From Corallococcus macrosporus DSM 14697 (GTDB lineage Bacteria; Myxococcota; Myxococcia; Myxococcales; Myxococcaceae), in NCBI RefSeq assembly GCF_002305895.1, contig NZ_CP022203.1, positions 7,722,001 through 7,786,000 on the forward strand: 64,000 nucleotides of DNA, given 5' to 3'. Below, one piece after another: positions 38,383 to 40,909 of this stretch. The translations under genes were made by a program, and so were the position numbers. The stretch's first letter is position 1. Every line of letters starts with the position of its first letter. The notes under the pieces were generated by a model. The model had not been told where the DNA came from, searched no databases, and was given only the letters and a program-made list of their open reading frames with translations.

Positions 38383-39747
38383 ATGACGTTGCGTGGGGCA
38401 GTGGCGCTGCTCGTGAGCGTGCTTCTCGTGGGCTGCACGACACCGCGAGTCGTACGCCTGGAGACGGGACAGGGCGAGCCCATCGTCTACATCCCGCCGA
38501 AGAACGCGAAGCAGGTCGAGGTGGATGAAGACGCGTTCCGGAATGTGATGACCCGGCTCGTGCTCGACATGCGCTTCTCCCTTCGCGAGGAGGAGACGGG
38601 GCGTCCACGAGTCCGGCTCGCCTCGTGGGGTTCAGCGTCCCAGGGGGCCGGGCACGACTATGGCGCCTGGTGCTCCCGCCAGGACAGTCCTGGCGAGTGC
38701 CTCACGCTCCTGGAGGGTGGCTTCTCCTTCCTGGATGCCAGGGCCCGTCGGCAGATGGCGCTCGCCTTCGCCTGGGACGGCGTGTGGGAGGGAGTGCAGG
38801 ACGCGGTGCAGGAGGTCGTCAATCCGCTCGCGCTCAAGGCCATGCTGACGTCGGCCATGGCCGCGTACATGTTCCTTGTCGTCGCGCCGGAGCCCGTCAC
38901 CAAGGTCGTCGCCGTCGCGCTGACGACCTTTGTCCTCGCCTACCTCGGCGTGGACGCCTTCATGAGCCTCGTGGAGGGCTGGCAGCGCCTGTCCGCGGAC
39001 ACCGAACGAGCCGTGTCGTTCCGGGAACTGGAGGACGCGGGGCACCGCTTCGGCCAGGTCATGGGGGAGAACGGCGCACGCGTCCTCATCCTCGCGCTGA
39101 CGGCGGCGCTGAGCGGCGGTGCCTCAAGCATGGCCTCCAAGGGGCCCACGCTCCCTGGCTTCGCCAGCGCCGCGCTGGCCGCGGAGACGCAGGCCGGCTT
39201 CCGGCTGTCCGCCGCGATGGCGGGGGGCGTGCGCTCCATCTCCGTCGCCGAGGGCGTCATGACCGTGGGCATCGCGCCCCATGCGGTCGCCATGACGGCT
39301 CGCGGGCCTGACAAAGAGCCCACACCTGGGGTTGATAGCACTGCATCCGAGCAGTTGCTCCCTAACCAGCAACCCGATTTGCTTCCTGTAGAGCTAGAAC
39401 GAGCGCGCAAGCTCGGGGTCCGTCCCACTCGCGTGGATTCGGCTGAGTTCGCACGCTATGCCACCGAGGACCGCGTGAAGTGGGTGCTCACTGCAGACGG
39501 CCAGCTACAAATCGTCCCGCACACTTGGAGGGGACTGGAGATCTCCCACGCCGTCGCCAGCGGAGGCAAACCCGTGCTCGCGGCAGGGGAAGCAGAGTTG
39601 GCCGTCCACGGGTCCACGTATTTTGGTATCCGGATCACGTCTCAGAGTGGCCACTACCTCAAAGGTGCATCAAAGGTCACGAACAGTCGGGTCGTTGAGC
39701 TTGGACGAAGAGCCTTCGCTCAATTTGGAATCACCTTTCCTCCCTGA
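38383..39747 (+). CDS. SitA5-like polymorphic toxin lipoprotein
   Basis: This is a 454-residue lipoprotein whose N-terminus (LLVGCTTPRVVRLETGQGEP, lipidated Cys18) closely fits the myxobacterial SitA5 toxin family as I recall it. SitA proteins are handed between sibling cells by outer-membrane exchange and kill cells lacking the cognate immunity protein. The conserved middle includes a helical membrane-like stretch (about 155-200: MLTSAMAAYMFLVVAPEPVT and VLAYLGVDAFMSLVEGW) and VMGENGARVLILALTAALSG. The C-terminal 130 residues (from about 315) form the variable tip with WRGLEISHAVASGGKPVLAA and ITSQSGHYLKGASKVTNSR. Its activity is unknown. GC content falls at the tip. A separate small gene, the likely immunity gene, follows ten bases later. 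Confidence 0.82.
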   Translation: MTLRGAVALLVSVLLVGCTTPRVVRLETGQGEPIVYIPPKNAKQVEVDEDAFRNVMTRLVLDMRFSLREEETGRPRVRLASWGSASQGAGHDYGAWCSRQDSPGECLTLLEGGFSFLDARARRQMALAFAWDGVWEGVQDAVQEVVNPLALKAMLTSAMAAYMFLVVAPEPVTKVVAVALTTFVLAYLGVDAFMSLVEGWQRLSADTERAVSFRELEDAGHRFGQVMGENGARVLILALTAALSGGASSMASKGPTLPGFASAALAAETQAGFRLSAAMAGGVRSISVAEGVMTVGIAPHAVAMTARGPDKEPTPGVDSTASEQLLPNQQPDLLPVELERARKLGVRPTRVDSAEFARYATEDRVKWVLTADGQLQIVPHTWRGLEISHAVASGGKPVLAAGEAELAVHGSTYFGIRITSQSGHYLKGASKVTNSRVVELGRRAFAQFGITFPP

Positions 39748-39757
39748 TGGAGGGGCC

Positions 39758-40306
39758 ATGGAAGTGAACTCCTCGTTGGTCCAAACCGTCTTGAGGTGGC
39801 CGCTACCGCGGTTGAGGGCGTGGCTTGATGGACTTGCCGTCGGTGAGCCCGTCGACGGAAAGGACTTCAACTGGGATGTCTTCGCCTTCACCCTCGCGGC
39901 GCGAGCCCAAGAAGAAACGAGCGTGGAATGGGCCCACCTCGCGCTGCTGGTCTACGGCGTCCTCGCACAACGCCGTTCCGACGAAGCGGAATTCTCCATC
40001 AGGCTCTCAGAGATGAACCTGCGCGCGTGGATGATTGCGGAGGTCGGCCAGCGTGAGGGCGACTTCGTCCTCGACCCCGCCCCCATCGTCGCGTGGGTCC
40101 AGCGCCTGACGACAATGCCGCTGGAAGAGGCCGCCCGATGGGTGGCCCATGAAGACCTTCGCGCCATCCCTATCGAGAAACTCCAAGCCATGCGCAGGCT
40201 CAAGCACGCCCTCAAAATCCTGGCCCACGCCCTACCCAGGACGAATGTGGAGCAGAAGCACCCGGAGCTCATCCCCTGGCTCCAGCTCCGAGCTCGCCTC
40301 CCCTGA
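39758..40306 (+). CDS. Putative immunity protein for the adjacent SitA5-like toxin
   Basis: This 182-residue soluble, mostly helical protein has no signal peptide or recognised domain. Features are an N-terminal helix VQTVLRWPLPRLRAWLDGLA and a C-terminal helical run EKLQAMRRLKHALKILAHAL. It starts ten bases after the toxin stop with GGAGGGG as ribosome site, so it is cotranscribed. Position, size and lower GC content match immunity genes of Sit loci, which act in the cytoplasm or at the membrane of the recipient. The immunity role is inferred from context only. Confidence 0.75.
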   Translation: MEVNSSLVQTVLRWPLPRLRAWLDGLAVGEPVDGKDFNWDVFAFTLAARAQEETSVEWAHLALLVYGVLAQRRSDEAEFSIRLSEMNLRAWMIAEVGQREGDFVLDPAPIVAWVQRLTTMPLEEAARWVAHEDLRAIPIEKLQAMRRLKHALKILAHALPRTNVEQKHPELIPWLQLRARLP

Positions 40307-40315
40307 CGCGCCGCC

Positions 40316-40909
40316 CTACCCCGCCCCGCCAGGCACCTGCGTCACGTGGCTCAGGAAGTCGCGAAGAATCCGCGCCGTCGCCCCCCAGATGACGTGCGTC
40401 CCGTACGTGTAGAAGTACAGGTCCCGCTCCGCCCCCAGGATTTCCTTCCGCTCCACGCGGAGGATGGACGGGTCCAGCAGGCCGGACAGCGGCACCTCCA
40501 GGATGAAGGCCACCTCCTCCGCGCTCGGCTGGTACTTCCCGTCCCCGGGAATCACACCGACAAACGGCCGCACCCGGTACTGCGAAATCGTGGGCACCTC
40601 ATCCAGCATCCCCAGCACCCGCACGCCGCGCCGGTCGATGCCCAGTTCCTCCTCCGTCTCCCGCAGCGCCGTGTGCAGGGGCGTCGCGTCCTCCGGCTCG
40701 CGGCCCCCGCCCGGGAAGCTGTACTGGTCCGCGTGCGTCCGCAGCGTCGCGGGCCGGCGCGTGAAGAGCACGTGGGGCACGCCGTCCCGCTCGAACACCG
40801 GCACCAGCACCGAGGCCTCGCGCAGGGTCCACCCCGGCAGGTGCACCTCACGCGCCGGCCGCGCGGACAGCCGTGACTCCAGTGCCTGGAACAGCGCCTC
40901 CACACTCAC
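40316..40909 (-). CDS. NUDIX hydrolase, CoA pyrophosphatase-like
   Basis: This is a 197-residue NUDIX enzyme. The Nudix box is [20 protein letters not shown] followed by EELGI, with the conserved Glu pair. Upstream is [20 protein letters not shown], the pattern typical of the NudL/YeaB CoA diphosphatase group (LxxRSxxLxxHxGqiaFPGG). The start is a GTG at 40909. It lies 18 bases downstream of uppP's end on the same strand and converges on the immunity gene. CoA or nucleotide pyrophosphate cleavage is likely. Confidence 0.88.

Follow-up and report, generated by a model that had tools for sequence, protein, structure and literature searches.

SitA toxins are transferred through outer-membrane exchange by TraA/TraB, as a preliminary description of the locus studied here had held; their tips are modular, and entry of SitA5 is ExbB1-dependent (PMC5562445, PMC8546572). 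Here we describe a gene pair at 38383-40306 of a 64,000-nucleotide stretch of the Corallococcus macrosporus DSM 14697 chromosome (hereafter the window), which is like the SitA5/SitI5 loci of Myxococcus in its escort, lipobox, polymorphic tip and downstream gene, as well as in the presence of traAB and of several alleles per genome (PMC5562445, PMC8546572). The SitA5 tips tested in the second of these studies are AHH or HNH nucleases, whereas the window tip and its immunity protein match no family. The pair is almost certainly a SitAI pair, and we read the whole as a SitA5-type kin-discrimination toxin/immunity operon, with a probability of roughly 0.8.

Residues 11-247 of the first protein match the NCBIfam model NF050093 (SitA5_escort) with an E-value of 1.4e-83 and 280.4 bits (cutoff 160). 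The preliminary description had proposed a SitA5-type N-terminus and let its reading depend on a SitA5 match within the N-terminal 300 residues, and the score is far above the cutoff. Its placement of the lipoprotein gene and, ten bases on, of a 182-residue gene was also correct in coordinates, lengths and gap. The toxin frame opens with ATG at 38383 and runs for 454 codons to a stop codon at 39745-39747; the second frame opens with ATG at 39758 and runs for 182 codons to a stop codon at 40304-40306. Direct reading of the toxin N-terminus, MTLRGAVALLVSVLLVGC-TTP, shows a lipoprotein signal, and its lipobox LVGC occupies residues 15-18. The features are as follows; confidence in structure models is given as the predicted local distance difference test (pLDDT).

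38383..39747, + strand: sitA5-type toxin gene, encoding a lipoprotein of 454 amino acids (open reading frame; NF050093 SitA5_escort)
38383..38436, + strand: putative lipoprotein signal peptide, ending in the lipobox LVGC (Cys18), with Thr at +2 (direct sequence reading)
38413..39123, + strand: SitA5 escort domain, residues 11-247, the delivery/entry part (NF050093; paralogue escorts)
39343..39744, + strand: C-terminal toxin tip, residues 321-454, an unnamed domain (homologues; AlphaFold2)
39478..39480, + strand: Lys366 (tip K46), shared by 24 of the 31 toxin tips in the alignment
39547..39549, + strand: His389 (tip H69), at the N-terminal end of the helix that comes next after the first two sheet strands, invariant in 37 of 37 aligned sequences
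39646..39654, + strand: Ser-Gly-His 422-424 (tip S102-G103-H104), in the loop between the last long strand and the C-terminal helix, with His in all aligned toxins
39758..40306, + strand: sitI-type putative immunity gene, 182 amino acids, unnamed family, predicted all-helical (linkage; structure model)
40316..40909, - strand: conserved chromosomal neighbour gene, NUDIX-like by eye (homologue in 27 of 27 Myxococcus genomes)

The machinery for delivery is encoded in the same genome. A look-up of traAB, which the preliminary description had suggested, found TraA (NF033759, 1163 bits, cutoff 750) and TraB (NF033763, 1027 bits, cutoff 700) side by side on this chromosome, at 8.189-8.193 Mb. Searches with PA14 and myxo_disulf_rpt had missed this traA; synteny with M. 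xanthus pointed to the 400 kb stretch in which it was then found. Six intact SitA5 escorts, the window gene included, and one truncated fragment are present in this genome, and SitA5 escorts occur in all 27 Myxococcus genomes searched, at 3 to 28 per genome. The escorts of the five other intact genes are 36-49% identical to the window escort, and all five bear tips that differ from the window tip. Three of these (L002, L003 and L004; L with a number labels a compared locus) are AHH domains (PF14412; E 2.8e-18, 1.2e-20 and 1.9e-22), two have no Pfam match, and the gene after L002, the one AHH paralogue tested, matches Imm11 (PF07791, E 9.4e-15). The AHH/Imm11 paralogues share escort family and genetic order with the window pair, but neither their tips nor the L002 partner resemble the window tip or its partner. 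The fragment, L008, is a truncated escort without a tip and likely a pseudogene.

Queries with the window tip and with sets of 19 and 37 family members gave no significant tip match to Pfam, NCBIfam or the PDB sequences, including no match to AHH (PF14412) or other HNH-type Pfam models, and no relatives in the viral contigs or phage records searched. The tip motif picked out in the preliminary description, ISHAVASGGKPVLAAG...SGHY, is present. Within the order, 22 genomes contain the tip, at 25 places in all, of which two have marginal E-values; beyond the order it occurs in at least five further lineages. A search of the toxin literature for SGHY found nothing relevant, and a possible likeness of the motif to plant IQM proteins was not used as evidence. 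Searching with the C-terminal end alone, another check proposed beforehand, returned no named family. It found relatives on SitA5 escorts of related Myxococcaceae and on Rhs/Hint proteins whose open frames span about 2300-2600 residues, as well as free-standing pieces. The tip terminates proteins of Sorangium, Streptomyces, a Beggiatoa-like metagenome-assembled genome (MAG), Mastigocoleus, a Chloroflexi MAG, Lacisediminimonas, Oscillatoria and Escherichia coli. The delivery part of the Rhs/Hint toxins is unlike SitA5, but in Streptomyces, Sorangium, cyanobacteria and E. coli their C-terminus belongs to the same tip family, mostly with the same immunity family behind it. The tip is polymorphic and swappable, with other tips on the five paralogues and its own family on Rhs/Hint proteins.

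The tip also differs from the escort in composition and divergence. Its G+C content is 60-61%, against 69.8% for the escort and 70.8% for the window. At the same site in other species (L022, L024 and L025) the escort is 89% identical and the tip only 56-58%, while at L016 and L017 the escort is 63-64% identical and the tip 69-70%, so the identities of escort and tip are uncoupled between species. Orphan tips without an escort also occur (L029, L033 and L034). Judged by conservation, the tip and the second gene would form a mobile toxin/immunity module. In the Streptomyces family, 37 of 298 genomes gave a match; at the weak end stand distant relatives, several of which carry a zinc ribbon and have STGYCP in place of SGHY. 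Six loci of Myxococcaceae and Streptomyces (L102, L103, L104, L193, L198 and L201) encode stand-alone unnamed proteins that share the tip core and keep the H389 position, with STGYCPD replacing SGHY and a zinc-ribbon-like CxxC...CxxC end, and are possible cellular relatives of the toxin.

The second gene has no match in Pfam, NCBIfam or PDB sequences, in line with the earlier statement that it holds no known domain. Its AlphaFold2 model is confident (pLDDT 92.3), but in structure comparison it resembles nothing beyond generic helical repeats, and at such Z values matches between helical proteins are uninformative. The evidence for its role is its position: it lies directly downstream of the tip, and this linkage is conserved across phyla. 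A profile of the family matches just downstream of all ten core-family tips (L173-L180, L203 and L204; E 1e-11 to 1e-32) taken from loci outside the set used to build it, namely eight Streptomyces-family genomes, an Oscillatoria plasmid and a Streptomyces plasmid. The family also follows the tip in Sorangium So ceGT47, Mastigocoleus and the Chloroflexi MAG, and immunity genes without a tip occur as orphans. By this linkage the second gene is the predicted immunity gene. Some genomes have additional copies side by side: in Myxococcus dinghuensis (L066:3397-5995), about four diverged copies stand in a row behind one SitA5 tip; arrays of extra copies are usual for immunity genes. Against Pfam 2025, NCBIfam 2026 and the PDB, the earlier suggestion of a possibly undescribed toxin mode and immunity partner still stands, and an informal listing in the PNAS 2019 SitA catalogue is possible.

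The AlphaFold2 model of the tip (pLDDT 94.3) opens with two helices and a pair of strands; a short helix beginning at His389 comes next, followed by two long strands and, after the SGH loop, a final helix. The histidine at 424 is kept in 31 of 31 aligned toxins, and the alignment shows no group of conserved acidic residues or cysteines of the kind that bind metals. The best match to a solved structure, found with the aligner VIA, is human PHPT1 (2nmm, Z 5.7, root-mean-square deviation 2.9 A over 81 residues), which is weak; the second-ranked match is another PHPT1 entry. In PHPT1 the active site comprises Lys21, His53, Ala54, Arg78, Ser94 and Ala96, with the substrate site next to helix one and to the loop that joins the last strand to helix two (PMC4817053). 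By topology, human PHPT1 (Janus/Ocnus, PF05005) may have a strand and helix order and Lys, His and Ser-loop positions like those of the tip, but it has no detectable sequence similarity to it, and the second loop histidine is found only in the toxins. K366, H389 and S422 may correspond, by element order, to the catalytic Lys21, His53 and Ser94. GNAT and gelsolin-like Foldseek matches were rejected as diffuse, and the sole PF05005 match in the phylum search was a spurious reading frame and was discarded. Among viral proteins in BFVD, the unnamed G8DGH9, E5EQ39 and A0A3G5AB55, one of them from Hyperionvirus, have a fold like the tip (best Foldseek E 2.4e-4).

The analysis established four things: membership of the escort family, traAB in the genome, the modular tips and the linkage of tip and immunity gene across phyla. 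Delivery, killing, immunity and chemistry are inferred. The lipoprotein would be anchored in the outer membrane, and TraA/TraB exchange would hand it to TraA-compatible neighbours, where the SitA5 escort domain would take the C-terminal tip in the direction of the cytoplasm. The helical downstream protein would remain in the producer and bind the tip, so that siblings would survive and cells without the immunity allele would be poisoned. Very probably the tip is a toxic enzyme whose action the downstream gene neutralises. It would be a small alpha/beta enzyme acting on phosphates, with the invariant His389 as its key residue, the Ser-Gly-His loop as a phosphate-binding site, a second catalytic site or both, and Lys366 assisting. 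Two classes of target may be considered, phosphorylated proteins attacked in the manner of a phosphohistidine phosphatase, or RNA cleaved without a metal. The likeness to PHPT1 is weak, the two histidines and the lysine fit a metal-independent ribonuclease at least as well, and the characterised SitA tips are nucleases; we therefore propose phosphate chemistry centred on His389, with RNA or phosphorylated protein as the target, and hold phosphate chemistry of one kind or the other to be slightly more likely than not.

Several results weigh against this account. Lys366 is replaced in 7 of the 31 toxins, and PHPT1 needs one histidine where the toxins keep two. The correspondence of the lysine, histidine and serine rests on helix and strand order, and according to the aligner's notes a VIA Z below 8 may mean a common arrangement only. 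Every PDB chain in the Foldseek search had E > 0.09, hhalign gave a probability under 1% for tip against PHPT1, and the tip profile did not align with PHPT1 clearly better than shuffles did. As to the partner, behind a minority of tips a cupin-like gene stands where the helical one would be, at L070:3384-3715 (Sorangium), L075:3390-3734 (Myxococcus qinghaiensis, the same kind as L026/L027) and L202:3362-3721 (E. coli, where the cupin-like loci are L202/L205), and L028 and L073 have no recognised partner downstream of the tip. The cupin-like proteins are interrelated, with 37% and 20% identity to that of L075 (the 20% one at E 3e-6 in a single comparison), and apparently make up another antidote family against the same toxin, unrelated to the helical one.

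The specific activity could be that of a metal-independent ribonuclease, with His389 and His424 as an acid/base pair, Lys366 stabilising the transition state and the resemblance to PHPT1 a coincidence. The two histidines in every aligned toxin, the frequent lysine and the lack of a metal-ligand cluster all suit such an enzyme, and the SitA toxins so far studied act as nucleases (PMC8546572). We regard it as a real possibility short of an even chance; the lysine is lost in a subgroup and no ribonuclease fold is prominent among the structural matches, an absence that is in itself inconclusive. That the tip is instead a PHPT1/Janus-fold enzyme, stripping phosphate from histidine-phosphorylated proteins such as two-component kinases or proteins of the phosphotransferase system, seems unlikely to us; the two leading VIA matches and the agreement in element order and in the lysine, histidine and serine-loop positions speak for it, but the Z is weak, sequence similarity is lacking, scans of tip family members gave no PF05005 match, and the second histidine is left unexplained. 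More doubtful still is the broader proposal that the tip founds an unnamed cross-phylum toxin family of PHPT1-like fold, which would kill by dephosphorylating histidine-phosphorylated proteins and would be countered by two unrelated antidote families, helical and cupin-like. To our knowledge, removal of phosphohistidine is not known as a killing mode for any polymorphic toxin.

Relics do occur, as the truncated escort L008 and the escort-less tips show, but a decayed or silent sitAI locus without current function is very improbable here, as both frames are open in the window and, at the same site in neighbouring species, tip (56-77%) and immunity protein (61-81%) are conserved with the invariant residues kept. 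It is equally improbable that the downstream gene is an unrelated neighbour: a few tips do have the cupin-like gene instead, but where the tip ends Rhs/Hint toxins in Sorangium, Streptomyces, cyanobacteria and the Chloroflexi MAG, the same helical family stands directly behind it, and extra copies are arrayed beside the tip in L066.

The sitAI pair adjoins the neighbour gene of 40316..40909 in nine genomes, the window's included, which marks a fixed site. A record titled Comamonas sp. KCTC 72670 (BNCN01000012.1, L067) holds Myxococcus-like sequence with a SitA5 locus and is probably misnamed; in the matching genome (G107), its neighbour gene is 94% identical to that of the window. In E. coli MEI003 (L205:1-4669), an Rhs protein carries the tip family and is followed, as in two other cases, by the cupin-like gene; RefSeq annotates an RHS core and a hypothetical protein only. 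The other E. coli locus, L202, lies on NZ_CP134663.1, a 4.9 Mb record that PLSDB files as a plasmid, although its size suggests a chromosome.

In conclusion, the delivery system of this SitA5-type operon is ordinary, but its warhead and antidote lack any Pfam, NCBIfam or PDB sequence match yet co-occur across phyla. The warhead family deserves a name. One E. coli Rhs locus that carries the tip is labelled by RefSeq only as an RHS protein and a hypothetical protein. With a confident fold and two invariant histidines, the activity lends itself to direct testing, and a helical partner exchanged for a cupin-like one behind one toxin would show how antidotes get replaced.
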